DNA from: Mediterraneibacter catenae
Lineage (GTDB): Bacteria; Bacillota; Clostridia; Lachnospirales; Lachnospiraceae
Assembly (NCBI RefSeq): GCF_008691045.1
Contig: NZ_VMSO01000012.1
Coordinates: forward strand, 1 to 64,000
Length of the DNA stretch: 64,000 bases
Reading direction: 5' to 3'
In this document: positions 1,316 to 20,621 of the stretch, one piece after another
Numbering within the stretch: position 1 is the stretch's first letter
Layout: the number at the start of each line of letters is the position of its first letter
The notes under the pieces: model-generated
Databases searched by the model: none
What the model saw: only the letters and a program-made list of their open reading frames with translations
What the model was told of the DNA's origin: nothing
Position numbers and translations under genes: made by a program

Positions 1316-1321
1316 ACTTGT

Positions 1322-2678: not shown

Positions 2679-3035
2679 ATGAAGCAGGAGACAATTGAGC
2701 AAGTATTAAAATTCAGGGACGACAGAAACTGGAGAAAGTTCCATAATCCAAAAGATCTGGCTATATCCATTTGTCTGGAGGCAGCGGAGCTTCTGGAAGT
2801 CTTTCAGTGGAGCGCGGAAGATGTCCAGTGTGAAGATAAAAAGGATAAGATCAGGGAAGAACTGGCAGATGTATTGAATTACTGTGTTTTGATGGCGGAT
2901 GAGTGCGGACTTGATATGGATGAAATTGTACTGGAGAAAATAAAGAAGAATGAGGGAAAATACCCGGTGGAAAAAGCATATGGGAGTAAAGAGAAATATA
3001 CGGAGTTGAAGGGGAGGGAGTGGAAATTATCTTAA
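2679..3035 (+). CDS. MazG-like nucleotide pyrophosphohydrolase
   Basis: 118 residues of the all-alpha NTP pyrophosphatase superfamily (MazG-like / dCTPase RS21-C6 type), which hydrolyse (d)NTPs to NMP and PPi. The metal-binding acidic motifs are visible: EAAELLEVFQW (about residues 31-41) and EELADVLNYCVLMADE (about 67-82). The start has an AAAGGGAGA ribosome binding site. It sits at the edge of the defence island; related enzymes are used for nucleotide-pool cleaning and some for phage defence, but no role can be assigned here. Base composition is intermediate between the core and the AT-rich island. Confidence 0.88.
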   Translation: MKQETIEQVLKFRDDRNWRKFHNPKDLAISICLEAAELLEVFQWSAEDVQCEDKKDKIREELADVLNYCVLMADECGLDMDEIVLEKIKKNEGKYPVEKAYGSKEKYTELKGREWKLS

Positions 3036-3333
3036 TAAAAAAGCGGCTATTGTTATGCAAGGTAAGGGCCTACTATATAAAAAATGCACTCACTTCTTGA
3101 CGTGAGCGTAAAAAGGACTGTGGAAGATAAGGTGGTAAAGGAAAATAGGAGATAGCGAAAAATATTTAGATTTGATAAAATTGAGATAAAAGTGAATTCT
3201 GTAATTAATAGAGCAAGTTTTAATTTCTGGGAGACTATAATGAGTTGATCTAAAATCAACAATAAGAAGTTGCATGATAAGGAAAAAGATGAAGCGACAA
3301 TTCGTAATAAACAAAGAAATAAAGGGGAGTTAG
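3036..3333. other. AT-rich intergenic region before the HEPN-type gene
   Basis: No gene seen. It holds small hairpins (CTCAC/GTGAG near 3091-3108; GTTGAT/ATCAAC at 3243-3259) and an isolated TATAAT at 3236-3241 without a convincing -35. This is where base composition drops towards the island level. Confidence 0.5.
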
Positions 3334-5247
3334 ATGAGAGTAGAATATGATGGTGTGAAATTTTATAGCGATTTTGACATGAGCTTAAGCTATAATTTTG
3401 ATAAAGCAAGAAAGATTTTAGAACAATTTGAAAAAGACATTAAGTATACGAATGTTAATCAAATAATTGAACTGTATAATATATATAAGATATTTACATC
3501 AAAAAGCATTAAAGCTGAATATACACAACCGTATAATATAAAGGTAAAGCAACTTATACCTGTAGTTGCACGTTATTTTAGAGGAATTAGTGATACGTCA
3601 TTTTTAAAGCAATATCATGTTGTCAGCGTAATTTATATAGATGATTTTTGGGAGCTATTTGATAAATTTAAGGTTTATGAGAATGTTTCTAGCGGCACCT
3701 TTAAAACTTTAATTAATGATCCAGAAACTACATTATATAATATCTTAAAATATAAAGACATTACACGGTACTATGATACTATTTTAGCAGAGTGTATGCG
3801 CAAATCTGATCAGACAGCAGAAATAATTATTGAAAAATTTTTGGAAAAGAAGACTCAAATTTCAGAAACTAATTGTTATATTCCGCCTTCATTAAAACCT
3901 GCTGAGTTTGAGGCGATTCTGGATAAATATATAGATTCTGAATATCCGCATATAGGAATGTTGCAATTGTTAGCTTCATCACAAAGTAGTGCAGAGTGTC
4001 CCATCAGTGACAAATTAAGGTTAAAAGCTAAGAGGGCAGCAGAAACTTATTTGCAGGAGCGTGTGGCTAATGGTGTTGGGATAAGTTATGGGATCGGAGT
4101 GATGTTTAGAGATTCTGATCAATTAATCTCAATGGAGGTCTCTAAATCAAATCAATATCAATTAACATATGACGCAAGTTGGATTCGAAATAATCAGGAT
4201 TATCCAACACTTCTAAATAATTTTGTATATTTGTTTGAATATACGGATCTCCATTTTCGGTGTACTTTTCCTTCTGTCCGGTCGCAGCTTGGTATTTTTG
4301 AAAAGACGTTAGGCGTAAAAGGAATAAAAGAATATGAAATTGGAACTGCATTTCGTATATCAGACATGAAATCTTCTATTGAAATGAAGGGGTATACAGC
4401 GTTCATTTCAGGCTTTAATATTCATATTGAAGATATATATAAATGGTTTTTTACTGAATATTTAAAAGATGAATTTGGTGTCCATGGATTTATCTTCAAT
4501 CCGCCATCGTATGAGCAATCTTTTTTAGAAAAATGTCGCAATCTTCCATCTGAGATGGATGGCATTCTAAAACAGTATAATTTATTTGTTCAATATGGTT
4601 CCATTGATCGGGAATTATTAGAAATGTCTTCTAATCCGGTGACATTTGATACATTACCATCAATGATAAATAACAAATATGTATATGCCAATAGCGCAGA
4701 GATAGAAAGGGAACAATTTTTGCTATTTTCTGATCAAAGTATGTTACATTATCTTCCCAACATCAAAAGATCGTTTAAAAATTTTTTTGAAGTACTATCA
4801 TCTTGTGAAGTGAAAATTTCAGATTATCCAGAATGGGAAATTAATGATATTAGATGGTTGGAGAAGCGTGGAACTATTCATATAGATACAAGTGGTATGT
4901 TACATAGTATAGACTCGCGTGTAAGATTACTTCAAGATTTATATGATCATGATGTTGTATGTCCGACTTACTATAGAGATAAAGCGGAAATAGAGAAGCT
5001 TGTTTTAACTGGTGATTTACGATATGGGAATACTTTGTTTAGTATTCCGGAACAGAATTATTTGAATTTTATGCTTAATAAATCTGAATATAGTAATGGA
5101 AAGGATTTGAGAAATAGATACATACATAGTACTTATCCAATTGATGTACATCAACAAGAACAAGATTATATGTGTTTGCTTAAAATTATGGCTGTTATTA
5201 TAATAAAAATTAATGAAGAATTGTGTTTGAAATATCCTGTAAATTGA
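3334..5247 (+). CDS. Uncharacterised protein with C-terminal HEPN-type R-x4-H motif
   Basis: A 637-residue soluble protein I cannot assign to a named family. Near the C-terminus, within a helical stretch, is NGKDLRNRYIHSTYP (residues about 588-602): R593 and H598 form an R-N-x3-H box typical of HEPN ribonucleases, in a context like that of DUF4209-type C-terminal domains (GxxLRNxxxH). The long N-terminal part is mixed alpha/beta with no transmembrane segment or nucleotide-binding loop. The start has a GGGGAG ribosome binding site 7 bases upstream. AT content is high, like the following island genes. Its position before a type I restriction operon, an Avs-like ATPase and Kiwa suggests an abortive-infection role (inference). 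Confidence 0.6.
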   Translation: MRVEYDGVKFYSDFDMSLSYNFDKARKILEQFEKDIKYTNVNQIIELYNIYKIFTSKSIKAEYTQPYNIKVKQLIPVVARYFRGISDTSFLKQYHVVSVIYIDDFWELFDKFKVYENVSSGTFKTLINDPETTLYNILKYKDITRYYDTILAECMRKSDQTAEIIIEKFLEKKTQISETNCYIPPSLKPAEFEAILDKYIDSEYPHIGMLQLLASSQSSAECPISDKLRLKAKRAAETYLQERVANGVGISYGIGVMFRDSDQLISMEVSKSNQYQLTYDASWIRNNQDYPTLLNNFVYLFEYTDLHFRCTFPSVRSQLGIFEKTLGVKGIKEYEIGTAFRISDMKSSIEMKGYTAFISGFNIHIEDIYKWFFTEYLKDEFGVHGFIFNPPSYEQSFLEKCRNLPSEMDGILKQYNLFVQYGSIDRELLEMSSNPVTFDTLPSMINNKYVYANSAEIEREQFLLFSDQSMLHYLPNIKRSFKNFFEVLSSCEVKISDYPEWEINDIRWLEKRGTIHIDTSGMLHSIDSRVRLLQDLYDHDVVCPTYYRDKAEIEKLVLTGDLRYGNTLFSIPEQNYLNFMLNKSEYSNGKDLRNRYIHSTYPIDVHQQEQDYMCLLKIMAVIIIKINEELCLKYPVN

Positions 5248-5270
5248 TAGTGGATATGTTAGAGTAATAT

Positions 5271-5405
5271 ATTACCGATAAAATTACTTTTGAGAAGGGC
5301 GTCCTTTTTGGGGATATTATTAATCGAATTATCAGAGGAACTTCGTGTTTTACAAAACGGTTGGACGAAATGGCATTACATAATGAATGGGGAAAGTATT
5401 TATGA
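5271..5405 (+). pseudogene. Short orphan coding remnant (about 44 residues)
   Basis: Between the HEPN-type gene and the zinc-ribbon gene there is an open frame without a usable start that reads protein-like (FEKGVLFGDIINRIIRG, then ALHNEWGKYL and stop). It could be the tail of a deleted gene. I recognise no family. Confidence 0.3.
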
Positions 5406-5418
5406 GGAGAAATGAAAG

Positions 5419-6549
5419 ATGGGAAAACTAAAGCAATGGTATTTTTATTACGGCGCTATTTTAACAGCTATTTTGGAGAAGAATCCAGATGTTTCTCCAA
5501 AGTTAATTGTTAATGAAGAATCAAAGCAGGTGTATAATATAGAAACGAAAGAATCGGATGCTGAATATATTATTTATTTTAAATATGCATCATGCAAAAA
5601 AGATACATATAGTGCATACAACAGTTGGGTATTCAACTTTACTGATGATGATAAGAATAGGCTGAGAAGATATTATAATGATGGAAAGCCTGTTTTTATA
5701 TATTTGTTATGTTTAAAAACGAATCTTCAGAATAGTGAAATTGTAGTGTTGAAATATGATGAATATATCCAGATAAAAAATAAATCAGCTATAACTATCG
5801 GAGTACAACCAAACAAGAAAACCTTCTATTTATTTTCCGGTGCTTCTAAAGCAAGAGATGATGCTTTTCTGGTTAAAAGAAATCGGATTACTTATAGTTT
5901 TCAAAAATTATTATCGGATACATTTTGTAATGGTAGTAATATTAAAAAGGATGAAAAAACAACAAAAGTTCAGTATAAGAATATAAAATATGGTTCAGAA
6001 AAGGTAATACAAGAACAGCAATATGAGGATAGTAATATCTGCCCTGTATGTGGAGAAGGAATTTTGACTGTGTCACGAAGTGCGGATCGAATATATAATT
6101 TTCTGGCAAAAAAATGTAACAAATGTGGAACGATATATCTGCAAAAAGAGGATTATATAAAAATTTCAAGACAATACGGAGGGATCCCATTAAAAGATAA
6201 TGTAAAGATTATGAATTGGAAACAAGAAGGATATGAAGGATACAGTGTGAATATTCCCCGAAAATCGTTACATGATCAGAAGGCAGTTGATGTGACGGAA
6301 AAGGCTAATTTAATCTATGTACTACCTCATAATAACAATATATGTCCAGTCCATCATAAGAAAATGGAAATAAGAACAATAGATCTTGGTAAGCATATAA
6401 AAGATACAGTGTATTATTGTAATGCTTGTAATAAATTATATGTTGAACAATGTAGGGAAAGCGAGCTGAATGGATTTTTGAAAAGTAAAAGAGCATTATC
6501 AAAATATAAAATTGTTTGTGACGATAAGAGTGCTAAGCGTAAAAATTAA
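5419..6549 (+). CDS. Uncharacterised double zinc-ribbon protein in the defence island
   Basis: 376 residues, no recognised family. The N-terminal half (about 1-170) is alpha/beta and includes EYIIYFKYAS and VFIYLLCLKT strands. The C-terminal half has two CxxC-type zinc ribbons: NICPVCGEG with KKCNKCGTIY (about residues 206-238), and NICPVHHKK with YYCNACNKLY (about 311-345). In the second ribbon a CPVH takes the place of CxxC. The start has a GAGGAG site. It ends 51 bp before hsdM on the same strand with similar AT-rich codon use, so it may be co-transcribed with the restriction operon. A nucleic-acid-binding accessory factor is plausible but unproven. Confidence 0.55.
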   Translation: MGKLKQWYFYYGAILTAILEKNPDVSPKLIVNEESKQVYNIETKESDAEYIIYFKYASCKKDTYSAYNSWVFNFTDDDKNRLRRYYNDGKPVFIYLLCLKTNLQNSEIVVLKYDEYIQIKNKSAITIGVQPNKKTFYLFSGASKARDDAFLVKRNRITYSFQKLLSDTFCNGSNIKKDEKTTKVQYKNIKYGSEKVIQEQQYEDSNICPVCGEGILTVSRSADRIYNFLAKKCNKCGTIYLQKEDYIKISRQYGGIPLKDNVKIMNWKQEGYEGYSVNIPRKSLHDQKAVDVTEKANLIYVLPHNNNICPVHHKKMEIRTIDLGKHIKDTVYYCNACNKLYVEQCRESELNGFLKSKRALSKYKIVCDDKSAKRKN

Positions 6550-6600
6550 GAATAGCTTACTTTGAACTGCACGGAAAATGATATAAGGAGACAAAAGAAT

Positions 6601-9156
6601 ATGAACAAACAACAATTAGCTGCGAAAATTTGGGAGTCAGCCAATAAAATGCGCTCTAAAATCGAGGCAAATGAATATAAAGACTATATTTTGGGGTTCA
6701 TTTTTTACAAATTTCTTTCTGAAAAAGAAGTGAAATATCTCAAAGAGAACGACTGGACAGAAGAGTATCTCCCGGAACTTACAGAGGATGACGATGAAAC
6801 AGTAGGAAGTGTCCAGAAAAATATAGGTTACTTTATTTCGTATGAGCATTTGTTTTCTACATGGATTGAAAAAGGAAACGATTTCAGCGTACAGGATGTA
6901 AGAGATGCACTGTCAGCGTTCAACCGTCTGATTAACTCAACCCACAAGAAAGTGTTTGAAGGTATTTTTGACACTCTTCAGACAGGCCTTTCCAAGCTTG
7001 GAGATAGTGCTGCTTCACAGTCAAAAGCTATTAGCGATTTAATACAGCTTATTAAAGATATTCCTATGGATGGCAGGCAGGACTATGATGTTTTGGGCTT
7101 TATATATGAATACCTGATCAATATGTTTGCTGCAAACGCAGGGAAAAAAGCGGGAGAGTTTTACACACCACATGAGGTATCCCTGCTTATGTCTGAAATT
7201 GTGGCAAATCATCTGAAAGGCAGAACCGAAATTAAAATATATGATCCGACAAGTGGTTCTGGTTCGCTGCTTATCAATATCGGTAAGAGTGTAGCTAAAT
7301 TTATGGAAAATGAAAACAACATCAAATATTACGCTCAGGAATTAAAACAAAATACATATAACTTAACGCGTATGAATTTAGTTATGCGTAATATTTTGCC
7401 GGATAATATCGTTACAAGGAATGCCGATACATTAGAAGATGATTGGCCATTTTTCGAGGACAGCGATCCAGTTGGAACATACAATTTATTGCCGGTAGAT
7501 GCAGTCGTATCAAATCCACCATATTCGCAAAACTGGAATCCGGCAGACAAAGAAACCGACCCTCGTTATGCTGATTATGGACTTGCGCCTAAAGGGAAAG
7601 CAGATTATGCATTTTTACTGCATGATCTTTATCATGTTAAAAACGACGGAATTATGACAATTGTTCTTCCGCATGGTGTGTTATTCAGAGGCGGTGATGA
7701 GGGAGAAATTCGCAGAAACTTGATCGAAAAAGATAAAATTGATGCCATTATCGGTCTACCTGCAAATATTTTTTATGGCACCGGTATTCCAACCATTATT
7801 ATGGTATTAAAACAAAAACGTCCTGACAATGATGTTTTAATTATTGATGCTTCAAAGGGATTTGTGAAAGAAGGGAAGAACAATAAGCTTCGAGCCTGTG
7901 ATATTAAAAAGATTGTAGATGTGGTGGCAAATCGAGAGAGTGTAGCGCATTTTTCAAAAGTTGTAAGTAAAGAAGAAATCAGACAAAATGACTATAGCCT
8001 GAATATTCCGAGATATGTAGACTCATCAGAAAAAGCAGAGCACTGGGACATCTATGCCTCAATGTTTGGTGGCATTTCTATGTCTGAATTAGACGAGATG
8101 AGAGAATACTGGAGAGCATTTCCCAATCTAAAAGAAGCATTATTTGAGCAGACATCTTCTGACTATTGTAAGCTTACCACTGATGACGTGAAGACGGCTA
8201 TTAAACAGCATAGTGATGTCTCGGCATTCAAAAATCAATATACCAACGTGTTTAATGGCATTGAAGATTATTTATATCATCAACTTATTGAGAATATGGA
8301 GACACTAAATATTTCTCGAACAGAGCAGATTTTAGCTGATGATATTTTTTCCAGATTATCAAATATTCAATTGATTGATAAATACGAAGCATATCAACTC
8401 CTTGATGATGGCTGGAATAAAATTGCAGTTGATCTGGAAATGATTCAAACGGAAGGTTTTGAAGCGGTAAAAAAAGTTGATCCCAATATGGTTCTTAAAA
8501 AGAAAAAGGGGAAGGATGAGGAAGTGCAGGATGGTTGGATCGGCCATATTTTACCGTTTGATCTTGTTCAGAACGTTTTACTGATTGACACTAAAAATGT
8601 ATTGAAAGATAAAGAAAACCGATTATCTGAGATTGGATCCGAATATGAAGCACTTATTGATTCTTTAACCGAAGAGGAAAAAGAAGCAGATTTTATAAAC
8701 GATGCAAAAGACAGTTTTGTTGCCACAGAGCTGAAAAAGGCATTAAAATCTGACAGCATTGATTCTGAAACAATGGAAAAACTGCGTGCTGCAAATACTA
8801 TTATTGCAGAAGAAAAAGCATTGAAAGCAGAAATTAAAAAGCTCTCTGCAGAGTTAGAAAGCAAAACGAAAGAAACGATTGAAAGTCTTACAGACGACCA
8901 AGCGATAGAGCTTTTAAAAGAAAAATGGAGTGTTCCACTCATTGAAAGTATTATGAAATTGCCGGATAATATTGTAAATGACCTGGTTTCTAAAATAGAC
9001 TGCCTTGCTAAAAAGTATGAAACAACCTTTGAACAAGTGGAAACAGAAATAGCAGAAACAGAAAAATCACTGTGTTCAATGATAGATGAGCTTTGCGGTA
9101 ACAAATTTGATATGTTAGGTCTAAATGAATTAAAAAAACTGCTTGGAGGTGAATGA
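6601..9156 (+). CDS. hsdM: Type I restriction-modification system, methyltransferase subunit HsdM
   Basis: 851 residues. Transfers a methyl group from SAM to adenine N6 in host DNA as part of the HsdM2S complex. Visible features: N-terminal HsdM helical domain (MNKQQLAAKIWESANKMR), GEFYTP (about 185-190), SAM-binding motif I DPTSGSGS (about 215-222) and catalytic motif IV NPPY (about 305-308). The ATG at 6601 has an AAGGAG site 10 bases upstream; a TTG 13 codons earlier has none. Most HsdM proteins are near 500 residues; here a Lys/Glu-rich, coiled-coil-like extension of roughly 300 residues follows, as in some Firmicute homologues. First gene of the hsdM-S-R operon. Confidence 0.96.
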   Translation: MNKQQLAAKIWESANKMRSKIEANEYKDYILGFIFYKFLSEKEVKYLKENDWTEEYLPELTEDDDETVGSVQKNIGYFISYEHLFSTWIEKGNDFSVQDVRDALSAFNRLINSTHKKVFEGIFDTLQTGLSKLGDSAASQSKAISDLIQLIKDIPMDGRQDYDVLGFIYEYLINMFAANAGKKAGEFYTPHEVSLLMSEIVANHLKGRTEIKIYDPTSGSGSLLINIGKSVAKFMENENNIKYYAQELKQNTYNLTRMNLVMRNILPDNIVTRNADTLEDDWPFFEDSDPVGTYNLLPVDAVVSNPPYSQNWNPADKETDPRYADYGLAPKGKADYAFLLHDLYHVKNDGIMTIVLPHGVLFRGGDEGEIRRNLIEKDKIDAIIGLPANIFYGTGIPTIIMVLKQKRPDNDVLIIDASKGFVKEGKNNKLRACDIKKIVDVVANRESVAHFSKVVSKEEIRQNDYSLNIPRYVDSSEKAEHWDIYASMFGGISMSELDEMREYWRAFPNLKEALFEQTSSDYCKLTTDDVKTAIKQHSDVSAFKNQYTNVFNGIEDYLYHQLIENMETLNISRTEQILADDIFSRLSNIQLIDKYEAYQLLDDGWNKIAVDLEMIQTEGFEAVKKVDPNMVLKKKKGKDEEVQDGWIGHILPFDLVQNVLLIDTKNVLKDKENRLSEIGSEYEALIDSLTEEEKEADFINDAKDSFVATELKKALKSDSIDSETMEKLRAANTIIAEEKALKAEIKKLSAELESKTKETIESLTDDQAIELLKEKWSVPLIESIMKLPDNIVNDLVSKIDCLAKKYETTFEQVETEIAETEKSLCSMIDELCGNKFDMLGLNELKKLLGGE

Positions 9157-9157
9157 T

Positions 9158-10411: not shown

Positions 10412-10427
10412 AAAAGGGGGAATTTAA

Positions 10428-13400
10428 GTGGCTTTTGACAAAGAAGCAGCTTTTGAACAGGCTGTTATAAATTTGTTGTCTAAAAATGGTTGGAGCGATA
10501 ATGTTCTGAAAAATTATAGCGAGCAAGATCTGTTGAGAAACTGGGCAAATATTCTTTTTGAAAACAACAAAGACATTGACAGACTGAATAATTGTCCTCT
10601 TACTGACAGCGAGATGCAGCAGATTATAGAGCAGATTGAGGCTTTAAAAACTCCTTTGAAGTTAAACGGATTTATTAACGGGAAAAGTGTGTCTGTTGTA
10701 AGGGATAATACGGACGATACACTGCACTTGGGGAAAGAGGTAAGCCTTAAAATATATGACCGCAGAGAAATAGCGGGCGGTGACAGTTGTTATCAAATTG
10801 TACAGCAGCCTAAGTTTCCTACTAAATCAAAAATATTAAATAACCGCCGTGGAGATTTAATGCTCTTAATTAACGGTATGCCGGTAATACATATTGAATT
10901 GAAAAAAAGCGGGATTCCTGTCAGTCAGGCATATCATCAAATAGAAAAATATTCTCATGAGGGTGTTTTTACAGGCTTATTTTCATTAGTACAGATTTTT
11001 GTTGCAATGACACCGGAAGAAACTGTATATTTTGCAAACCCTGGTATAGAGGGGGAGTTTAATCCTGACTACTATTTCCATTGGGCAGATTTTAATAATG
11101 AGCCCATCAATCAGTGGAATAAAATCGTCTCTACCATGCTTTCTATTCCTATGGCCCATCAGTTGATAGGCTTTTACACTGTTGCAGATGATTCTGACGG
11201 AGTATTAAAGGTTATGCGTAGTTACCAGTATTATGCGGCAAGTGCCATTTCTGATAAGGTGGCGAAAACTAAATGGGATGAAAAAAATCAGCTTGGCGGA
11301 TTTGTATGGCATACGACAGGTTCGGGCAAAACAATGACAAGTTTTAAATCGGCACAGTTGATTGCAAGCTCTAAAGATGCTGACAAAGTTGTATTTTTAA
11401 TGGACAGAATAGAACTGGGAACACAGTCATTAAAGGAATATAGAGGATTTGCAAATGAAAATGAGGACGTTCAGGAAACTGAAAATACAGGTGTGCTTAT
11501 TACAAAATTAAAAAGCAGTAATCCGGCAGATACGCTGATCGTAACCTCTATTCAAAAGATGAGCAATATCAAAGATGAGGACGGTGGCCTGAACGCAGAA
11601 GATATTGAAAAGATAAATCAAAAGCGTATCGTATTTATTGTGGATGAGGCGCATCGATCTACATTTGGTGATATGCTGATCACCATAAAAAACACCTTCC
11701 CAAAGGCAATTTTCTTTGGCTTTACAGGTACACCAATTCACGAGGAAAATCAAAAGAAAAAGAATACCACAACAACAGTATTTGGAAACGAACTTCATAG
11801 ATACAGTATTGCGGATGGAATACGTGATAAAAATGTTTTAGGTTTTGATCCGTATAAAGTGATGACTTTTAAGGATAAAGATGTGCGGAAGGCAGTTGCT
11901 TTAGAAAAGGCAAAAGCAGAAACGGAGCAGGAGGCAATAGCAGACCCCAAAAAGAGTAAGGTATATTATAAATATATGGATTCTGTTAAAGTGCCGATGG
12001 CAGGGTATAAGGACGAGCTTGGCGGATATGTAAAAGGAATTGAGGACTATCTTCCTAATTCTCAATATCGAACAGAGGAACATATTAATGCTGTAGTAAA
12101 AGACATATTGGAAAACTGGGTAACACTCAGTCATAACGGTAAATTTCACGCAATTTTTGCAACAAGCAGTATTCCGGAAGCGATAAATTATTATTGTGTG
12201 ATAAAAGATGCAATTTCTGATTTAAAGGTAACCGCTTTGTTTGATCCGAATATTGATAATAATGGTGGTGCTGTATATAAAGAAGAAGGGTTGGTTAAAA
12301 TTATCGAAGATTATAATGCTCGTTACAGGCAAAGCTTCACGATTCCTACATTTGCGAAAATGAAAAAGGATATTGCAGCACGTCTGGCACACAAAAAACC
12401 TTATGAACGAATAGAGAGAGAACCGGACAAGCAAATAGATCTGCTTATTGTGGTAGATCAAATGTTGACCGGTTTTGATTCAAAATGGGTTAATACTCTT
12501 TATCTGGATAAAATGCTTGAATATGAAAATATTATACAGGCATTTTCTCGTACAAATCGTTTGTTTGGTCCGGATAAGCCGTTTGGTACCATCAAATATT
12601 ACCGCAGGCCACATACAATGGAGAAAAACATTGAAGCAGCAGTAAAGCTGTATTCCGGCGAAAAGCCATGGGGATTATTTGCACAGCATCTTCCTGAGAA
12701 TTTGAAAGCTATGAACGATATTTTTGAAGAAATATCTTCACTGTTTTCAAATGCAGGTATCAATAACTTTGAAAAACTACCGGAAGACATTACCGTATGT
12801 AGAAAATTTGCAAAGTGTCTAAAAGAATTAAATGAACATTTAGAGGCTGCCAAAATTCAAGGTTTTAGATGGGATGTATCAAGCTATCAAGATGAGGAAT
12901 CGGGCGAAGTCATAGATATGCTTTTCGATGAGCGATTGTATTTAGTTTTGGTTTTGCGTTATAAGGAGTTGTCGTCAGGAGAAGGCGTATCAGGTGGCAG
13001 TGATGATGTTCCTTATGACCTTGTGAGTTATATTACGGAAATTGATACAGGAGTAATCGATTCAGACTATATGAATTCCCGTTTTGAAAAGTATATGAAA
13101 CTGCTGCAGTTAGATGGCGCGACACAGGCGTCGATCGAGCAAGCTGAGGCGGAACTGCATAAAACATTTGCCATGCTTTCACAAGAGGAGCAAAAATATG
13201 CTGATATTTTCTTGCACGATATACAGCGAGGGGATGTACAGGTAGAAGCAGGAAAAACCTTTAGAGATTATATTACAGAATATTTGGCAAAAGCAAAAAA
13301 TGATCAAGTTCATAGAATTTCGTCTGTTTTAGGTTTAAATGAAACTATGCTTCGAAACATGATGAGTCTAAAGTTGAATGTGAATAATATTAATGAATTT

Positions 13401-13664
13401 GGACGTTTTGATGAGTTAAAAAAGACGGTTGATAAATCAAAAGCAAGGCAATATTTTGAGGCAATAGAAGGAAGAAAAATAATACCGCCTAAGGTGAATG
13501 TTAAAGTGGATAATTTACTTAGAGAGTTTATCTTATCTGATGGTGTAGATATTATATTGCCAACGGATAGGGATAATGAAAAAATCAATTATCTGGAATA
13601 TTATCCTAACTTCGAAGATCTGCCGATGGTTGCTGAAGGTAAAGTGGAGTATGGTGATAAGTAA
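10428..13664 (+). CDS. hsdR: Type I restriction-modification system, endonuclease/translocase subunit HsdR
   Basis: 1078 residues. ATP-driven DNA translocase and nuclease that cuts unmethylated DNA far from the recognition site. The RecB-like nuclease has D143 and E157-x-K159 (RRGDLMLL, then HIELKKSG). The superfamily 2 motor has Walker A TGSGKT (297-302) and DEAH (406-409). The start is GTG at 10428, with AAAAGGGGG upstream and only 16 bases after hsdS. Length is normal. The polar helical C-terminus presumably contacts HsdM. The nuclease and helicase motifs are intact, so the system looks active. Confidence 0.96.
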   Translation: MAFDKEAAFEQAVINLLSKNGWSDNVLKNYSEQDLLRNWANILFENNKDIDRLNNCPLTDSEMQQIIEQIEALKTPLKLNGFINGKSVSVVRDNTDDTLHLGKEVSLKIYDRREIAGGDSCYQIVQQPKFPTKSKILNNRRGDLMLLINGMPVIHIELKKSGIPVSQAYHQIEKYSHEGVFTGLFSLVQIFVAMTPEETVYFANPGIEGEFNPDYYFHWADFNNEPINQWNKIVSTMLSIPMAHQLIGFYTVADDSDGVLKVMRSYQYYAASAISDKVAKTKWDEKNQLGGFVWHTTGSGKTMTSFKSAQLIASSKDADKVVFLMDRIELGTQSLKEYRGFANENEDVQETENTGVLITKLKSSNPADTLIVTSIQKMSNIKDEDGGLNAEDIEKINQKRIVFIVDEAHRSTFGDMLITIKNTFPKAIFFGFTGTPIHEENQKKKNTTTTVFGNELHRYSIADGIRDKNVLGFDPYKVMTFKDKDVRKAVALEKAKAETEQEAIADPKKSKVYYKYMDSVKVPMAGYKDELGGYVKGIEDYLPNSQYRTEEHINAVVKDILENWVTLSHNGKFHAIFATSSIPEAINYYCVIKDAISDLKVTALFDPNIDNNGGAVYKEEGLVKIIEDYNARYRQSFTIPTFAKMKKDIAARLAHKKPYERIEREPDKQIDLLIVVDQMLTGFDSKWVNTLYLDKMLEYENIIQAFSRTNRLFGPDKPFGTIKYYRRPHTMEKNIEAAVKLYSGEKPWGLFAQHLPENLKAMNDIFEEISSLFSNAGINNFEKLPEDITVCRKFAKCLKELNEHLEAAKIQGFRWDVSSYQDEESGEVIDMLFDERLYLVLVLRYKELSSGEGVSGGSDDVPYDLVSYITEIDTGVIDSDYMNSRFEKYMKLLQLDGATQASIEQAEAELHKTFAMLSQEEQKYADIFLHDIQRGDVQVEAGKTFRDYITEYLAKAKNDQVHRISSVLGLNETMLRNMMSLKLNVNNINEFGRFDELKKTVDKSKARQYFEAIEGRKIIPPKVNVKVDNLLREFILSDGVDIILPTDRDNEKINYLEYYPNFEDLPMVAEGKVEYGDK

Positions 13665-13730
13665 TGGCACCAAGAGACTATATGAATGGGATACGGTTGG
13701 AGTACATTAAGATGTAGAGGAAAGTAAACT

Positions 13731-16700
13731 ATGGCAGCAGGACAAATTACGTGGGAACGCTTCATCACGAACAACAATGATGCACGTGGAGTCAGATATA
13801 AATTTGAAGATTTGAGCAGACAATTATTTACATATGAATTTCTTTCTCAAAATAAGCTGTTCAAATATGTTCATAGTAATCCAAATAATCCAGGAATCGA
13901 ATCAGAACCTATATTGGATGAAGTAAATAACAGATATATTGGATACCAAGCAAAATTTTTTGATGGTAATGCTGATTACGATCAAATCAAAGAGTCAGCA
14001 CAACAAGCAGTTAAGTATTATAAAGGAAAGTTAGACTGTATTTATTTATTCTGTAATAAGCCTCTTACAACTACCTGTGATAGTTATATGAGCATTGAAA
14101 AATTGTTAAACGATGCTGGTATTGAATTACAGCCGATAACAGATACAACCATACTCGATCTTGTTAGAAAATATCCGTTTTTGGGGAAATACTACTTTGA
14201 TGATCATGGTATTTCACGTGAGTGGTTTGTAAATAAGGCATCTACAACAGTTAAAATTCTCGGGGAACGTTTTAATGCTGATTTTAATGTAGATACAGAG
14301 GCCGCAAGAAATCTATCTATTTTTTTGCAAGATCAGAGCGCCTTGGATTATTACAATAATAAAAAAAGCAAGCTTATTGAAGAAATCGCTTCATTACGAT
14401 GGGAACTTGATGATTTATACAGATATGCTCGTAAACTTTCCGAATTTATTGTCACAATACCGGATGTGAAGTTTGATTGCATTCATGATGTTGAAAACTG
14501 GAAAGGAATGATTTCTACAGCATTCGAACAGGATTTGACCGAAATAGAAACAAAAATTGCGGATGTACAACTTGAGTATGAAGAAATAAAAGGCAGCAAC
14601 AAAAATAAGGAGGCTGAATTAAAAAGAAAAGAGGGGAAATTAAATAAACTTAGAAATTTGTTTTATCGGTTAGAATTATCTGAAACTGAGCGGAATCTGC
14701 TTAATAATAAGATTCTGATAGTTGAAGGAAAAGCAGGCATTGGCAAGACACAACTGTTTGCAAACGAAGCGATTTCGTTACTTAATGCAAACGAGGATGC
14801 TTTGTTAATCCTTGGAAGTGATTGTCTTTCTGATATTAATATATTTGAACAGTTAAAGAATAATTTGAGATTGGATTTTGATTTTGAGGATCTTATCGAT
14901 ATTTTGGAAGTAATTGGAGAAACAAATGGAAAGATAGTACCAATCCTGATCGATGCATTAAATGAAAGCTGGAAACCACAATTGTGGAAATTTGTTTTGC
15001 CTGTATTGCACAAAAAAGTAAGTGATAAGAACTATGTCCGCTTGGCTGTTTCGTTTAGAAGTGAATATCAGAAATCAATCCTTCCAGAACGATTTCTTGA
15101 ATTGGATAATGTTACGAAAATAGAGCATAGGGGATTCAGAAACAATCCATTTGAGGCTGCAAAACAATTCCTTGATCATTATGGAATACAGTTTACTCCA
15201 TTACATATGTTCACTTCTAATATTGACAATCCGTTATTTTTAACACTGTATTGTAAAACATATCAAGGCGATGAAGTGGAACTGCCAACATTGTATGAGC
15301 GTCTTTTAGAAAAGGCAAACGATAAGCTTTATATGGAGAAGGCAAAACTAATTGAGGCAGCGGGTTACGATCAATCAGATAATATAGTTCTGCCTATAGT
15401 GGAAGCTATATCTAAACAGACTCTGCTTACAGGCAAGCGCCATTTTGAAAAAAGTGAGATTGAATCGATACCAATTTGGAACTCATTGGGATTGACAGCC
15501 AGACCACTTATTACGCAGCTCATACGGGAAAATATTCTTCATGACTATGAAGCCGATGGGAAAAACTATGTGTATTTTTCGTTTGATCAGATGAATGACT
15601 ATTTTTCGGCAAAGACAATTTTTTCAATGTTTCAGACTGAAGAAGAAATTAGAAAATATGTTTATGAAAATGTGTTGGGCATTGTTGATGGAGAATTTAA
15701 AAACTGGGGAAGCGAAGATCTGTTTGTACATGTTTGTGCCTTGTATGCTGAAAAGTTCGGAAAAGAATGTATAGATATTATACAATCTATAAATGATGAA
15801 TCGGCTAGGGGGGATTTATTTAGAGCATATATTGAATCTTTTGAGTGGAGAAGTAAAATCTATTTATCTGTTTCAGAATTGTTGGAACTCTGTAATGAGT
15901 ATTCTATAGCCCCGTCTGTTTTATGGAATGCCTTTATAAGCAATTCGGTAAAACAAGGTCATCTATTGAATGCAGATGCCTTATACGATGTATTAAGGCG
16001 ATATCCACTTGCCACAAGAGATTATCTTTGGACAACATTTATTAATGGAATAAGTTCAGGTGATGAGCGTATTGTTCAGTTAATTGAAATTTATAATAAA
16101 GGCGAAGCTCTTGAGGTTTCTGATAAAGAACAAATCAGACTATTACTAATTCTCTTCTCGTGGGTACTTACTTCTTCGAATCGCTGGCTTCGAGACACAG
16201 TGTCCAAGGCTATGATTGAAATTTTAAGGGATCATTTTGAGTATACGGAGTATCTTTTGAAATTGTTTTCAGATGTAAATGATCCTTATGTGATTCAAAG
16301 ACTTTATGGGATTACGTTTGGAGCTTGCGTAAAGCGTAATTGTGAAGATAAGGTAATATTTAAGTCGTTGGTTTGTTTTGCGTTTGAGGACATCTTTAAT
16401 AAGGATACTGTATATCCGGATATTTTGTTGAGAGATTATGCAAGACTTATCATAGAACGGTATTTGATGGAGTATCCAGATGAACTTCATAATTATGAAG
16501 TTGAAAAAATAAAACCACCATATAAATCAATACCGATTCCGGATATAGATGATCAAAAATATTCGGATAAAGACTTTAAAAATGGCTTATTTTATATTCA
16601 GAATTCTATGCGATTCGAAGGAATCGGTATGTATGGGGATTTTGGAAGATACGTTTTCCAAAGTGCGTTACGAAATTTTGAGGTAGATGACTACAAAATA

Positions 16701-18026
16701 TTCAATTATGCCATGTATTATATCATTAATGAACTGGGGTATCAGGGAGAATTATTCGATGATTATGATAGATTTGTGAATGGCTTCGCATACGACAGAC
16801 ACCGTGTGTTAAAGGTGGAACGTATTGGAAAGAAATATCAGTGGATTGCTATGTATAATATCTTAGCTCGAATCTCAGATTATTATCCTATGAGGAATCG
16901 GTATTCAATGGAAGAAGAGATGGTATCATACGATGGCCCATGGGAACCTTATGTAAGAGATTTCGATCCAACGCTGAATGAACATAATTTATTTTGTGAT
17001 GATGCCCCTTATTTCCCGCAAATTAATGATCATATGAGAGAGTCTGTTCAAGAAAATAATTGTGCTAAAGATGATTCTGCATTTGATGAAGATATATGGA
17101 CGAATTCTAGCCCGATTTTTTTTAGACATCAGAAAGACGACTTATTATTAACCGATGATAGAGGAAGTCAATGGGTTGTTCTGTCTAAATATGCCGATTC
17201 CGGTAAAAATGATCTGGCATATGACAAACTACTGGTCTGGAATTGGTTGTATGGATATTTTGTTACGGATGAACAATTGGCTATATTAAAAGAGTATGCA
17301 GGAAAAAATGTGGATCTACGTAATAGTGATATCAATTGGCTTCCAGAAACGTATACCCTATATAATAGAGAGTATCCATGGTCAAGTGGTAGCAAATCTG
17401 TGTTAAAATGGCAATGGAAAAATATTGAATTAAGAACCGGTGAAACAAAATTGGTTACTAGAACAATTGAAGAGCCACGGTTTTCTCGGATAGATGCATT
17501 GTGGAAGAAGTACTTAGGTGAAGCTGAAGATGAGGAAGCAGAGTTTGAATCAGAAATGGAGTTAGATGAAGACTTTGAAATTCCGACCGTTACAAAAATA
17601 TACACAGAAGAAGAACCAGTAACAATAGACTTGGGGCAAGCGCTAAATACTACGCAAGACTTATTATGGGAGGAAGAATATGATGCATCTAAAGAAGATG
17701 CCATTTCGTATTCCCATCCATGTGCAGAAATCATTAATACATTGGATCTTAGGCAAAAGAAATATGATGGGTATTATTACGATAAGACAGGTGTGCTTAT
17801 AGCTTTTGATACTGATTTGACAAAACAAAAAGCTGGATTGATTATTCGGAAAGATGCTTTGGACAAATTCTTAGAAATTAGGAAGTTTCATCTTGTATGG
17901 TTTATAAATGCCTCTAAAGAGATACATGACAAAACGCTTATGATTACCAAGTTCACAGATTGGACTGGATTATTGGAATATACAGGTGATTCTGTACAGG
18001 GAGACTATTATATTATAGAATCTTGA
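13731..18026 (+). CDS. Avs/AVAST-like STAND NTPase with N-terminal PD-(D/E)xK nuclease-like domain
   Basis: 1431 residues. Layout fits the Avs anti-phage family, in which a C-terminal sensor binds a phage protein, the STAND ATPase oligomerises and an N-terminal effector is activated. Residues 1-150 resemble the Cap4/Mrr-type nuclease effector, with E57 and the Q73-x-K75 of GYQAKFF. The ATPase has Walker A GKAGIGKT (333-340) and Walker B ILIDALNES (405-413), the form typical of these STAND proteins. About 800 further residues are helical-repeat-like, ending in an acidic stretch (about 1260-1300) and a C-terminal domain. The gene starts 66 bp after hsdR, co-directional. The subtype (Avs1 to Avs4) cannot be told by eye. 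Confidence 0.8.
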   Translation: MAAGQITWERFITNNNDARGVRYKFEDLSRQLFTYEFLSQNKLFKYVHSNPNNPGIESEPILDEVNNRYIGYQAKFFDGNADYDQIKESAQQAVKYYKGKLDCIYLFCNKPLTTTCDSYMSIEKLLNDAGIELQPITDTTILDLVRKYPFLGKYYFDDHGISREWFVNKASTTVKILGERFNADFNVDTEAARNLSIFLQDQSALDYYNNKKSKLIEEIASLRWELDDLYRYARKLSEFIVTIPDVKFDCIHDVENWKGMISTAFEQDLTEIETKIADVQLEYEEIKGSNKNKEAELKRKEGKLNKLRNLFYRLELSETERNLLNNKILIVEGKAGIGKTQLFANEAISLLNANEDALLILGSDCLSDINIFEQLKNNLRLDFDFEDLIDILEVIGETNGKIVPILIDALNESWKPQLWKFVLPVLHKKVSDKNYVRLAVSFRSEYQKSILPERFLELDNVTKIEHRGFRNNPFEAAKQFLDHYGIQFTPLHMFTSNIDNPLFLTLYCKTYQGDEVELPTLYERLLEKANDKLYMEKAKLIEAAGYDQSDNIVLPIVEAISKQTLLTGKRHFEKSEIESIPIWNSLGLTARPLITQLIRENILHDYEADGKNYVYFSFDQMNDYFSAKTIFSMFQTEEEIRKYVYENVLGIVDGEFKNWGSEDLFVHVCALYAEKFGKECIDIIQSINDESARGDLFRAYIESFEWRSKIYLSVSELLELCNEYSIAPSVLWNAFISNSVKQGHLLNADALYDVLRRYPLATRDYLWTTFINGISSGDERIVQLIEIYNKGEALEVSDKEQIRLLLILFSWVLTSSNRWLRDTVSKAMIEILRDHFEYTEYLLKLFSDVNDPYVIQRLYGITFGACVKRNCEDKVIFKSLVCFAFEDIFNKDTVYPDILLRDYARLIIERYLMEYPDELHNYEVEKIKPPYKSIPIPDIDDQKYSDKDFKNGLFYIQNSMRFEGIGMYGDFGRYVFQSALRNFEVDDYKIFNYAMYYIINELGYQGELFDDYDRFVNGFAYDRHRVLKVERIGKKYQWIAMYNILARISDYYPMRNRYSMEEEMVSYDGPWEPYVRDFDPTLNEHNLFCDDAPYFPQINDHMRESVQENNCAKDDSAFDEDIWTNSSPIFFRHQKDDLLLTDDRGSQWVVLSKYADSGKNDLAYDKLLVWNWLYGYFVTDEQLAILKEYAGKNVDLRNSDINWLPETYTLYNREYPWSSGSKSVLKWQWKNIELRTGETKLVTRTIEEPRFSRIDALWKKYLGEAEDEEAEFESEMELDEDFEIPTVTKIYTEEEPVTIDLGQALNTTQDLLWEEEYDASKEDAISYSHPCAEIINTLDLRQKKYDGYYYDKTGVLIAFDTDLTKQKAGLIIRKDALDKFLEIRKFHLVWFINASKEIHDKTLMITKFTDWTGLLEYTGDSVQGDYYIIES

Positions 18027-18124
18027 TATTGGTGTGTAAATACTGGTGGAATGTGGGCTTAGCCTTGTGCCATCAGAGTCTGTAAAACTTTATTGAATGG
18101 AACAGCAAAATTAACAATAGAATT

Positions 18125-18183
18125 ACTGTTTATTTTCATGTCTAATTATTATATTATTACAACATGAAAGTAAAACTGTTAAT
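18125..18183. repeat. AT-rich imperfect inverted repeat before kwaA
   Basis: TTTCATGT and ACATGAAA form a perfect 8-bp stem, weakly extended outward (ACTGTTT with AAAACTGT), around an AT-rich loop of about 20 bases. It may end the hsdR-avs transcript or act as an operator for kwaAB. The rest of 18027-18248 has no gene. Confidence 0.4.
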
Positions 18184-18248
18184 AGAGATTTTGAGAAAGG
18201 TTATCCTTGAAGACAGATTTGACATAGCTTGAACAGGGGGGCGGTGAT

Positions 18249-18863
18249 ATGGAAAACAGGCAGAAAATCCGTGAAAAAGATACAGGTATAAAGCTCCGAT
18301 TTTATTTTATGTCGTTATGGCTTTTGTTTGTTTTGATTTTTCTATTAACTATTGATATACCAATAAGTTTCGCTAAAGATGCGCACTTCATAGGTATTAT
18401 GCCGTTGTTGGAGAAAAACTGGCTTGCTTTTTCTTCTTTGTTACTCGCAATTCTGGGATGGATTGTTGCATCTGGTGAGAAACGAAGATGGGCAGGAGTT
18501 TCAAATCCGCCATACAAGATCAAATCTATTAAAAATGAAAATTATGAATATTTGACTTTTCTCACTACCTATATAATTCCTCTGATTTGTATCGACTTGA
18601 CTAAGATTCGTTATGTGTTTGTTCTTGTTGTACTGTTAGTATTATTTGGCTTTATTTTTATTCGAATGGATTTGTATTGTGGCAATCCTACTCTTGCACT
18701 CATGGGGTATAGGCTATATCGAGCAGAAATAGAAGGAGTTGATGCTCCTGATGGAGTGATTTTAATATCAAAAAATCGTCTGCTGAAGGAGTCATCCATA
18801 AAATGGATTCCTATAGATAAATATGTTTGGATAGCAAAGGAGATAATAAATGACATCGGATGA
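18249..18863 (+). CDS. kwaA: Kiwa anti-phage system membrane protein KwaA
   Basis: 204 residues with four predicted membrane helices (about 16-38, 57-75, 101-116, 121-140) and a cytoplasmic C-terminal tail. Size, topology and the immediate overlap with a DUF4868 gene fit KwaA, the membrane component of the Kiwa defence system. The start follows GGGGGCGGTGAT. Identification rests mainly on its partner gene; sequence alone would leave it a four-helix membrane protein of unknown function. Confidence 0.78.
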   Translation: MENRQKIREKDTGIKLRFYFMSLWLLFVLIFLLTIDIPISFAKDAHFIGIMPLLEKNWLAFSSLLLAILGWIVASGEKRRWAGVSNPPYKIKSIKNENYEYLTFLTTYIIPLICIDLTKIRYVFVLVVLLVLFGFIFIRMDLYCGNPTLALMGYRLYRAEIEGVDAPDGVILISKNRLLKESSIKWIPIDKYVWIAKEIINDIG

Positions 18864-19821
18864 ATTAAAAAATGCAGTGTCTACTGTATTAGAACAACCA
18901 CATTATACACAATTATATTTGATACTTAAGATAAATAATGAGTTAGTTATGCGTTTGGCTGACATAGAAGATGAAGAAACTGCACCGGAAATTCAGAATA
19001 TGTTTGAAGGATTTTTGAATACGACTATTATTTCTAATGAAGATATGGTAATTCGGGATCTTTCTGTAGCGGATGAGTCTCCTAATGTAATATATCAATA
19101 TGATTACGATAGTTATCCACAAGAACTGGGATTATTTAGGCAGTTTGAAATTGTTGAAGCGATTAAATCGCCTCATTTCAATTTTGAGACAGATGATCTG
19201 AGTCATTTGTTTGGTTACATAATTTATCTCGGTTCGATGCAAAAGGGTATTGTATTGTTTAAAAAGCACTATCCTATTTCTTTGATAAAGCGAGAAAGCT
19301 TTTTGTTGGGGGCTATTAAAAGCAAGGAAAGATTTGAAAGATTGCCGGGGGAAGATATTATCCGCTTAAATAATGACGTACAACTTTTGCGATTGGGCGA
19401 GACAGTATTTGTGTTTGATTTAAGAGTGTTGGAACACAATATGGGCTTTTCGGCTCTTATGCAGCAAACGGCTATAGAGACAGTTGAGGCAATCGAAGAA
19501 TTGGATATTCTTGATGATATTGAGGTGTTGAGAGATACACTTGAGGATTTATCTTTTGCACGTAAACTTTCTAAAGTAAAAAAATCCTCTGCTATTTTTA
19601 AGTTAGGGATTACAAAAGATACTATTGTTGAATTTACTAAAACGACACCAGCGCTTGTCGGAAAGTTCAAATATAGTAATGATGGAGCGAAGATTAGATT
19701 AGATTCAAAAAAATCTAAACTGGCGTTTTTGAAGTTGTTGAATGATTCGTTCTTACATTCTGAGCTAACGGAACAGTATTATGAAGCATCTGCGAAAGAT
19801 AACATTACTCAAAATGCTTGA
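18850..19821 (+). CDS. kwaB: Kiwa anti-phage system protein KwaB (DUF4868)
   Basis: 323 residues, soluble. The sequence fits the DUF4868 family: a central KKHYPISLIKR motif followed by strand-rich segments (VQLLRLGETVFVFDL) and a helical region with LSFARKLSKVKK. In Kiwa, KwaB is the effector that works with membrane-bound KwaA. The gene overlaps kwaA by 14 bp and has AAAGGAG at its start, indicating translational coupling. It is the last intact gene of the AT-rich island. Confidence 0.85.
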   Translation: MTSDELKNAVSTVLEQPHYTQLYLILKINNELVMRLADIEDEETAPEIQNMFEGFLNTTIISNEDMVIRDLSVADESPNVIYQYDYDSYPQELGLFRQFEIVEAIKSPHFNFETDDLSHLFGYIIYLGSMQKGIVLFKKHYPISLIKRESFLLGAIKSKERFERLPGEDIIRLNNDVQLLRLGETVFVFDLRVLEHNMGFSALMQQTAIETVEAIEELDILDDIEVLRDTLEDLSFARKLSKVKKSSAIFKLGITKDTIVEFTKTTPALVGKFKYSNDGAKIRLDSKKSKLAFLKLLNDSFLHSELTEQYYEASAKDNITQNA

Positions 19822-20527: not shown

Positions 20528-20621
20528 TAATTTCATAAGCTAAGTCAAAGAAGGGCTCGGTACCAGTAAGGCACCGGGCCCAACTATTACGGTTTTTAAC
20601 AGAGAATTTTCAGCCAAGGTA

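Follow-up and report, generated by a model that had tools for sequence, protein, structure and literature searches.

A 17-kb block of predicted anti-phage genes is very probably a decayed relative of elements whose integrase appears to target the CIRCE heat-shock operator

Introduction

Known defence hot spots are places in the chromosome to which integrative elements bring different systems in related strains, and Tn916 inserts at many AT-rich sites. We know of no defence hot spot that uses a heat-shock operator. None was found in the literature searched, nor was an earlier report of CIRCE as an attachment site; PMC12056078 was rejected as a lead, "Circe" in its available text being the name of a company. 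Streptococcal ICEs integrate in or beside housekeeping genes by means of site-specific tyrosine integrases, at targets said to minimise harm, a few of which lie at gene 5' ends; the available text of PMC4701971 counts 18 target genes and names eight. TnGBS-type elements insert 15-16 bp upstream of -35 boxes (PMC4701971, available text).

In the window, by which we mean the whole stretch of 64,000 nucleotides that was analysed, lies a 17-kb block of predicted anti-phage genes (E2, 3083-20135). We propose that E2 is very probably a decayed integrative element, and that the integrase of its relatives uses the CIRCE of heat-shock genes as attB. These relatives share with Tn916-type elements a PF02920 plus PF00589 integrase at one end and direct arm repeats at both ends, but their target would be CIRCE rather than many AT-rich sites. 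With known defence hot spots they have in common varied defence systems at one site on integrative elements. They resemble streptococcal ICEs in their site-specific tyrosine integrases and in targets of a kind said to limit harm; however, no CIRCE gene is among the targets named in the available text of PMC4701971, and here one operator motif leads to several unrelated target genes. As with TnGBS-type elements, the target is intergenic and linked to a promoter feature common to many genes, whereas those elements combine a DDE transposase, target duplication and low specificity, and here a tyrosine integrase and a sequence core are found (PMC4701971, available text).

Results

In the integrase subfamily (at least 44% identity, Lachnospiraceae), 32 of the 43 loci had a CIRCE (TTAGCACTC-N9-GAGTGCTAA) within 700 bp on the 3' side of the integrase, while seven had a bare core and four (L237, L262, L321 and L326) neither. 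Among more distant Tn916-type integrases this was the case for 1/32, and on the 5' side of the integrase for none of 75 loci. An integrase tree of 56 rows (one locus entered twice; 4/59 loci with pieces <330 aa left out) placed all 34 rows with CIRCE or core inside one clade of 35 rows (support 98/94), and none of the 21 rows outside it had either. The clade representative from L113 has a PF02920 N-terminal and a PF00589 catalytic domain. The only feature common to the target genes was CIRCE: hsp20 stood at 16 of the 32 CIRCE loci, clpB at 11, htpG at two, and groES and a thioesterase gene at one each. On this evidence the landing site is the CIRCE operator and not a duplication of hsp20. A sister integrase (L284) is also found at a CIRCE, ahead of a gene that reads as htpG by eye.

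Integrases 99-100% identical to one another occur in this genus and in six more, suggesting that they were recently transferred between genera. Many of the sequences come from draft genomes or MAGs. All matches at E<=1e-95 in 392 genomes from the order belonged to the window's family, and in 391 genomes from the class the matches outside that family (E<=1e-80) were 38-41% identical and had no CIRCE. Plasmid and phage collections held no integrase relative of at least 60% identity (best 41% and 43%, E<=1e-50).

Five elements could be delimited by direct repeats of 18-28 bp containing ATTAGCACTCACCTCTTG: G379 (23.5 kb), G092 (28.9 kb), G198 (20.3 kb, with a bare core and no full CIRCE on its right side), G406 (28.1 kb) and G035 (23.2 kb). 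A sixth had kept its left junction alone. The repeat shared by an element's left and right junctions stops inside CIRCE. Junctions at CIRCE were sharp both for the G379 element, at clpB, and for the G406 element, at the sole hsp20 found in a stretch of 29.5 kb. When the flanks of the G092 element were joined, they aligned across the junction with L012 (77.6%) and L115 (76.7%) over 738 columns each; these are empty sites, with no element between the flanks, from another genus than G092 and at about 77% identity. In G092's own genus, none of the three genomes searched, one of them G092, spanned an empty junction. A core by itself is no mark of an element, since ACCTCTTG is common as the exact spacer at hsp20 CIRCEs without arm repeats (21/72) as well as at those with them (9/14).

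The first 20.6 kb of the window, which begins at a contig end, contain three CIRCE-hsp20 cassettes (Table 1), and the genome has eight CIRCE places. Cassettes A and C each share 83-84% identity with B along some 480-750 bp, and operators B and C differ from the element core. The hsp20 of cassette C is 93% identical over 115 bp to the MATE-adjacent hsp20 of G009, and is read as the native copy beside MATE. An earlier note on this DNA had described a defence block bordered by an intact and a broken cassette, and B and C are indeed intact and broken. The recombinase remnant it placed at the edge is also real: over 1311-1631 it matches residues 297-403 of the L113 integrase at 74% identity. E1, a first element, would have lost its body and survive between hsp20 A and B only as this fragment and a right end. 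The repeats noted at the edges match the right-end repeats of related elements, at E1 as well as at E2.

Table 1. Features in the window; attachment sites and element ends are assigned from sequence
Feature	Position	Strand	Evidence or remark
CIRCE operator of hsp20 cassette A	567..593	+	left arm perfect
hsp20 A, intact	805..1257	+	PF00011
Integrase 3' fragment, Tn916-type, putative E1 remnant	1302..1634	+	PF00589 (Phage_integrase), 55.8 bits; homology from about 1348
E1 right-end arm repeats (AAATGGTGTAAAAATGGTGTAGTAAG)	1778..1803	+	
CIRCE of hsp20 B, putative attR core of E1	1892..1918	+	
hsp20 B, intact	2109..2561	+	PF00011
MazG-like protein	2679..3035	+	PF12643
Putative worn attL of E2, degenerate half-CIRCE core (AATGCACTCACTTCTTG)	3083..3099	+	
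Sub-terminal left-end sequence common to another element	3113..3198	+	score 82; best of 500 shuffles 56
PDC-S56 candidate defence protein, possible HEPN RNase	3334..5247	+	PADLOC 702 bits
Zinc-ribbon-like protein	5419..6549	+	Pfam matches under their cut-offs
HsdM, type I methyltransferase	6562..9156	+	PDLC03022 (MTase_I) 1282 bits; PF02384
HsdS, type I specificity subunit	9143..10411	+	Specificity_I 315 bits; two repeated halves (repeats D7, D9)
HsdR, type I restriction subunit	10428..13664	+	PDLC03048 (REase_I) 479 bits; PF18766, PF12008
Avs2 STAND NTPase	13731..18026	+	PDLC02164 639 bits; PDLC02162 residues 6-1424
KwaA (Kiwa)	18249..18863	+	PDLC00219 215 bits
KwaB (Kiwa)	18850..19821	+	PDLC00233 290 bits; PF16162
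E2 post-integrase right-end segment	19907..20010	+	82-83% over 100-105 bp to segment 3' of integrase, L231, L232
E2 right-end arm repeats	19994..20019	+	
CIRCE of hsp20 C, putative attR core of E2	20109..20135	+	one mismatch to searched pattern
hsp20 C pseudogene	about 20326..20530	+	~250 bp internal loss and frameshift
MATE transporter, conserved right flank of site	20685..22058	+	PF01554

At its right end E2 has retained post-integrase segment, arm repeats and CIRCE. The left end is weak: the terminator and arm repeats expected between the core and the sub-terminal stretch are absent. The half-core aligned best with the left end of G035 (3081-3108), a score reached by 1/500 shuffles; with the left end of L017 the best alignment fell elsewhere (3089-3139) and was reached by 8/500. 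Searches of ORFs, Pfam and homology to the clade integrase revealed no integrase, RepA or DnaC gene inside E2. As E2 has no clade integrase, we call it a decayed derivative of the CIRCE-integrating clade and not a complete member, and having lost both integrase and left arm repeats it is probably immobile and fixed in place.

Gene identities were assigned by PADLOC and Pfam profile searches, and much of what the earlier note had read in the block was borne out. Every gene between cassettes B and C lies on the plus strand. The block is AT-rich, with a GC of 0.344 in 3084-20109 against 0.501 in 20685-64000, and GC3 is 0.23-0.32 in the eight genes from PDC-S56 to KwaB compared with 0.48-0.50 in hsp20 A and B and 0.64 in MATE. 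Type I restriction-modification is represented by clustered hsdM, hsdS and hsdR, each with its own domains; the Avs-like STAND ATPase is matched over most of its length by an Avs2 profile and has a P-loop (GKAGIGKT at 333); and kwaA, whose product has three hydrophobic peaks, adjoins kwaB as expected of Kiwa. The reading frames of these genes are still open, and their products are predicted to act in defence. Other labels held in part. The "HEPN-type" protein, PDC-S56, has an RNxxxH motif (R593, N594, H598; 593-598) invariant in 40/40 aligned rows, query included, but no Pfam match at E<=0.05 was found, and Foldseek with its structure model (pLDDT 89.8) gave no match in the PDB at E<=0.001; the HEPN label, which has the motif as its basis, was therefore not accepted as proven. 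The "zinc-ribbon" protein does have Pfam matches, but below their cut-offs; a distant homologue occurs in L116 near hsdM and hsdR homologues.

The MazG-like enzyme was correctly identified, but its place in the defence block was rejected. The GC3 of mazG (0.49) is near the host value, and in relatives L184, L185 and L186 an element left end lies no more than 400 bp beyond a related mazG; MazG is thus probably the left flank of E2 and not cargo. A mazG was matched in 19 of 58 genomes, and most of the mazG loci read have no element left end within 400 bp after the gene. In G049, mazG occurs on both sides of a left end, once with a c106-family neighbour. Behind mazG and the left end in L184 (G050, another species) lies an Avs2 91% identical to that of the window.

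Comparison of related genomes upheld the claim of a hot spot. The hsp20-MATE junction is met repeatedly in the genus: hsp20 lies upstream of MATE in 32/38 sites, and 13 of the same 38 contain an integrase or a piece of one. The DNA upstream of hsp20 differs between species and includes defence cargo unlike that of the window. The pattern that the note had named as counting against it, the same genes with core-like composition in all relatives, was absent among the sites compared. What did not survive is the proposal that hsp20 duplicates form the landing zone: the same integrase clade is also found at the CIRCEs of clpB, groES and htpG, and in G406 at the sole hsp20 of the 29.5 kb examined. 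Duplication of hsp20 as cause or requirement was rejected on these grounds; each repeated cassette is either an attR-hsp20 junction or a paralogue, and repetition is not a requirement.

The cargo examined varies among elements and includes BREX, type I, II and III restriction, Hachiman-like and Avs2 genes. In L123, two of four proteins gave weak LeoA/LeoBC matches, and in L185 and L186 one of three large ORFs had a weak match. Since the large ORFs of the close subfamily were picked by eye, no rate of defence cargo is claimed. PADLOC matches (E<=1e-25) beside more distant CIRCE integrases were found for 2/10 large proteins, at one of five loci (BREX, G209), and beside outgroup integrases as controls for 0/10 proteins. 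Each set was drawn from five loci, two ORFs per locus, these being the largest in the 15 kb on the 5' side of the integrase, with element ends not delimited; control loci L336, L340 and L343 (of eight) and CIRCE locus G084 (of six) were left out. With so few matches at the distant CIRCE integrases, it is only for the close subfamily that defence cargo is shown.

Discussion

The basis of our proposal is sequence: the core, the ends, the adjacency to CIRCE, one empty site and the cargo. Close relatives of E2 encode a RepA_N initiator and a DnaC/IstB-like protein and, at the right end, a Tn916-type tyrosine integrase, and there are defence genes in their cargo. Their integrase would catalyse recombination with the CIRCE of a heat-shock gene, probably within or beside the shared core, which covers the left arm and most of the spacer. 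Since the core is carried on the right end of the element, a complete CIRCE would be rebuilt after integration, and this operator, with TTGACA overlapping its right side, would again precede the chaperone gene, where HrcA could still regulate it. In the present genome E2 would have come to lie in this way between mazG and the hsp20 C-MATE pair.

It could be argued that the integrase recognises the hsp20 upstream region, or chaperone promoters in general, and that CIRCE is a mere passenger. Half of the CIRCE loci are at hsp20, and because the core overlaps TTGACA, promoter and operator are not fully separable. We nevertheless consider this improbable, since clpB, groES, htpG and the thioesterase gene have the CIRCE repeat alone in common, the repeat shared by the two junctions stops inside CIRCE, and the sister integrase of L284 lies at the CIRCE of an apparent htpG. 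As a second alternative, the hsp20 repeats could have recombined with one another, homologously or by unequal crossing-over, and trapped the defence genes between copies with no site-specific integration. The three similar cassettes, the duplicated mazG around the left end in G049, and tandem hsp20 pairs in L146 and L147, with no integrase found in the stretch examined, would be in keeping with such events, and they may be the source of the present order of copy B and E1. As an account of the block this is very improbable, however, since its edges are marked not by hsp20 alone but by an integrase fragment, by arm repeats and by end sequences specific to the elements, and equivalent blocks with sharp CIRCE junctions occur at clpB and at an hsp20 that is the sole one in the stretch examined.

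That the block is a resident defence island, slowly accumulated in the absence of any element, with the integrase fragment an unrelated old insertion, is hardly credible to us. It would agree with the failure to find integrase, RepA and DnaC genes inside E2, but at its right end E2 still has the arm repeats and post-integrase segment that CIRCE elements have, GC and GC3 shift at both edges, and Avs2 is 91% identical to a gene that in another species lies behind the left end of an element.

Most site-specific elements are bound to a single gene. Here the docking site is apparently a regulatory palindrome before several chaperone genes, so that the same integrase would find several equivalent ports in each genome, and insertion would rebuild the operator. 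CIRCE may thus serve as an address for seeking defence cargo in Lachnospiraceae, and insertion there may explain odd tandem hsp20 arrays. It is possible, if rather doubtful, that HrcA and Int compete for CIRCE and that integration and excision of the islands depend on the heat-shock state. If this were true, islands could move and be exchanged once stress, and perhaps phage infection as well, had taken HrcA off CIRCE, and the CIRCEs before several chaperone genes would act as built-in docking ports for defence cargo. It also becomes testable whether stress regulation and the movement of immunity genes are linked.

Pfam scans of ten G046 and four G092 proteins, RepA_N and an IstB-like protein among them, revealed no conjugation gene; the cargo of the other elements was mostly scanned with PADLOC only. 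In the region of a distant relative (G176), an AAA_10 protein was observed.

Results

The earlier note had proposed that duplicated hsp20 genes act as the landing zone of the island, but comparison of related integrases places the target in CIRCE, the HrcA operator found before heat-shock genes. In total, 75 integrase loci were collected, 30 from a first search and 29, 9 and 7 new ones from three later searches (best-ranked matches only), and a CIRCE was called when it had ≤4 mismatches and lay within 700 bp 3' of the integrase gene. At least 44% identity to the integrase of genome G046 was found at 43 of these loci, and in this close subfamily CIRCE was present at 32, the core only at 7 and neither at 4. 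Among the more distant loci CIRCE was found at 1/32 (L284), and on the 5' side of the integrase at 0/75; the loci are related to one another, and these counts are not independent trials. In the integrase tree (56 rows, of which 53 are distinct, with one locus present twice and four short pieces excluded) every row with CIRCE or core fell within one 35-row clade with support of 98/94, the sole row of that clade with neither being L262, whose right flank is lost; CIRCE or core was found in none of the 21 rows outside it.

The genes downstream of the 32 CIRCE loci were hsp20 (16), clpB (11), htpG (2), groES (1) and a 4HBT thioesterase gene (1), with a contig end in one case. Pfam supported four of the clpB (Clp_N/AAA), both htpG (Hsp90), Cpn10, 4HBT and one partial Hsp20; the remaining seven clpB were named by eye from their shared N-terminal sequence and the remaining hsp20 by tblastn. 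Since clade integrases are found before all of these genes, the sequences indicate that CIRCE, and not hsp20, is the target. At L270, where the CIRCE before the thioesterase gene is occupied by a clade integrase, this gene is either an unusual CIRCE-controlled gene or one moved in by rearrangement. The spacer of hsp20 CIRCEs was exactly ACCTCTTG in 9/14 with upstream arm repeats (short direct repeats near element ends) versus 21/72 without them, and the element core is therefore close to a common native form.

Nine aligned left ends shared a conserved stretch, which in eight begins at a CIRCE half-site or a one-base variant of it, (A)TTAGCACTCACCTCTTGG; the ninth, the upstream one in L034, is without the half-site. 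The half-site is followed by a hairpin-like stretch, two direct copies of TGGTGTAGTAAA and then the cargo. At the right end, more arm repeat copies are followed by AT-rich DNA of about 100 bp, which leads into the complete CIRCE belonging to the target gene. In G050 and G002 the right end of one element is followed directly by the left end of another at TTAGCACTC, and the elements are therefore stacked in tandem. The five elements delimited by direct repeats span 20.3-28.9 kb; in G198 the right junction shows just the bare core with other DNA beyond it, as would be seen within a tandem array, and a sixth element, in G353, retains its left end but is missing its right flank. When the flanks in G092 were joined computationally, they aligned unbroken to L012 and L115, in which a MATE-like gene and CIRCE-hsp20 are contiguous, as at an empty site.

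Direct repeats and PADLOC matches of related elements
Genome	Delimiting direct repeat	Cargo
G379	AAAAAATTAGCACTCACCTCTTG	type I restriction, PtuA/AriA-type ATPase
G092	TTAAAAAAATTAGCACTCACCTCTTG	type III restriction, HKD-Snf2 protein
G353		type II and III restriction, PDC-S68, HKD-Snf2
G198	TATTTAAAAAATTAGCACTCACCTCTTG	type I and type IV restriction
G406	AAAAAATTAGCACTCACCTCTTG	type I restriction, HamB, PDC-S37/Hhe
G050		Avs2
G035	ATTAGCACTCACCTCTTG	BREX

The GC content of the G379, G092, G353, G198 and G406 elements was 0.35-0.40. The cargo of the close subfamily was taken from hand-picked large ORFs, so that the PADLOC matches give no rate of defence cargo, and the cargo of L123, at the same site, had weak matches only. 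Under a fixed rule, 2/10 proteins beside the more distant CIRCE integrases matched defence profiles, at one locus (BREX), versus 0/10 beside outgroup integrases; defence cargo is therefore shown for the close subfamily only.

L185 has three successive left ends with different ORFs between them, one of which weakly matches the UG24 reverse-transcriptase defence profile, and reads as an array of CIRCE elements or of cargo cassettes. In L186, a left end and its ORF stand between two copies of mazG, one of which is accompanied by its c106-family neighbour, and flanking genes seem to be copied around CIRCE elements, mazG here like hsp20 in the window.

In the genus search, the MATE region was matched in 50/58 genomes. 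Of 38 fetched sites, 32 had an hsp20 upstream of MATE and 13 a whole or partial integrase; many contigs stop near the site, so that little can be read from an absence. The sequence upstream of hsp20 was variable, and occupied sites with different cargo were found, as the idea of a hot spot had anticipated. In G046 the type I system is a different one and is accompanied by RepA_N, an IstB/DnaC-like protein and a complete Tn916-type integrase (PF02920, PF00589), whose gene stops about 490 bp short of hsp20. In G035, BREX genes, DndA/SspA and AbiD precede a related module (RepA 58%, DnaC 70% and integrase 81% identical). Relatives of the window's cargo at these sites were distant (Hsd proteins in L113 and L116, a zinc-ribbon homologue in L116). 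At the site in another species (G038) there is a fossil HsdR C-terminus, 82% identical to that of the window over 74 aa, and this site may formerly have held the same cargo.

Positions of features in the window and in compared sequences
Feature	Sequence	Positions
mazG	window	2679-3035
Decayed element E2	window	3083-20135
E2 left half-core, AATGCACTCACTTCTTG	window	3083-3099
E2 sub-terminal stretch	window	3113-3198
Zinc-ribbon-like protein	window	5419-6549
MATE gene	window	20685-22058
CIRCE before clpB (L316)	G000:C1	198194-198220
Another Tn916-type integrase (L247)	G000:C12	274626-275759
HsdR fossil	L140 (G038)	14974-15195
Successive left ends	L185 (G007)	6353-15520
Duplicated mazG	L186 (G049)	1507-8573

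The window covers the first 64 kb of contig C4, and its bases 1-20600 contain three cassettes of CIRCE and hsp20, named A, B and C; hsp20 genes of this kind are also present in Mediterraneibacter and related Lachnospiraceae records. The hsp20 of C is a pseudogene adjoining the MATE gene, and the 3' fragment of a tyrosine integrase sits between A and B. The genes of the B-to-C interval share one strand and comprise one MazG-like gene and eight that are AT-rich (PDC-S56, zinc-ribbon-like protein, HsdM, HsdS, HsdR, Avs2, KwaA and KwaB), so that the gene list of the earlier note was correct overall, with its HEPN and zinc ribbon labels weakly supported. The AT-rich composition it noted was borne out, GC being 0.344 in 3084-20109 versus 0.501 in 20685-64000. 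GC3 was 0.23-0.32 in the eight genes, 0.48-0.50 in hsp20 A and B and 0.49 in mazG, which is present as described but seems to be a neighbour rather than cargo. The zinc-ribbon-like protein, encoded directly before hsdM, had no Pfam family above cut-off, and only 10 homologues were returned when 5.8 billion proteins were searched by word matching.

Judged by sequence, the right end of E2 is good and its left end worn. The right end has arm repeats, a CIRCE with one mismatch and a stretch of 100-105 bp that is 82-83% identical to sequence downstream of the integrase in L231 and L232. On the left, the half-core alone is weak (1/500 shuffles reached the score of its alignment to the left end in G035), and the sub-terminal stretch scored 82 against the L034 left end (best of 500 shuffles, 56); hairpin and arm repeats were not found between the two. 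E2 itself yielded no integrase, RepA or DnaC. In G050, G049 and G007 a left end lies within 400 bp after a related mazG, but this is not so at most other mazG loci, and the Avs2 of the G050 element is 91% identical to that of the window.

Discussion

The ends, core, target, empty site and cargo of these elements are seen in the aligned genomes. With its 9-9-9 layout, CIRCE is similar to the inverted-arm core at which tyrosine recombinases act, and we propose that Int would bind at the arm repeats and at the half-site of CIRCE, with strand exchange in or beside the spacer. With TTAGCACTC-ACCTCTTG coming from the element end and ACAGTGCTAA from the host, the operator and TTGACA upstream of the chaperone gene would be restored. 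Integrative elements and defence islands are already known; as far as we have seen the CIRCE target is new, no description of CIRCE as an attachment site having turned up in searches of an open library of 5.39 million papers, with most subscription papers and preprints outside that scope.

In the simplest history, E2 would have entered the CIRCE between mazG and the native hsp20 C, after which its integrase would have been lost and hsp20 C would have decayed, leaving A and B. Our guess is that hsp20 B came to lie ahead of mazG via recombination within a tandem array.

The window's genome has HrcA and eight CIRCE places (one per strand for the backward control pattern), before hrcA, groES, htpG, clpB, three hsp20 and one other gene, with groES, htpG and clpB named by eye. 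A stretch just upstream of its clpB CIRCE resembles the right end of the 58%-identity integrase subtype (compare L239) and is likely what remains of a second insertion, at a different CIRCE. The same genome encodes another Tn916-type integrase (36%), at L247, where there is no CIRCE; a nearby repeat matches the element arm sites, and arm repeats seem to be common to integrases beyond the CIRCE clade.
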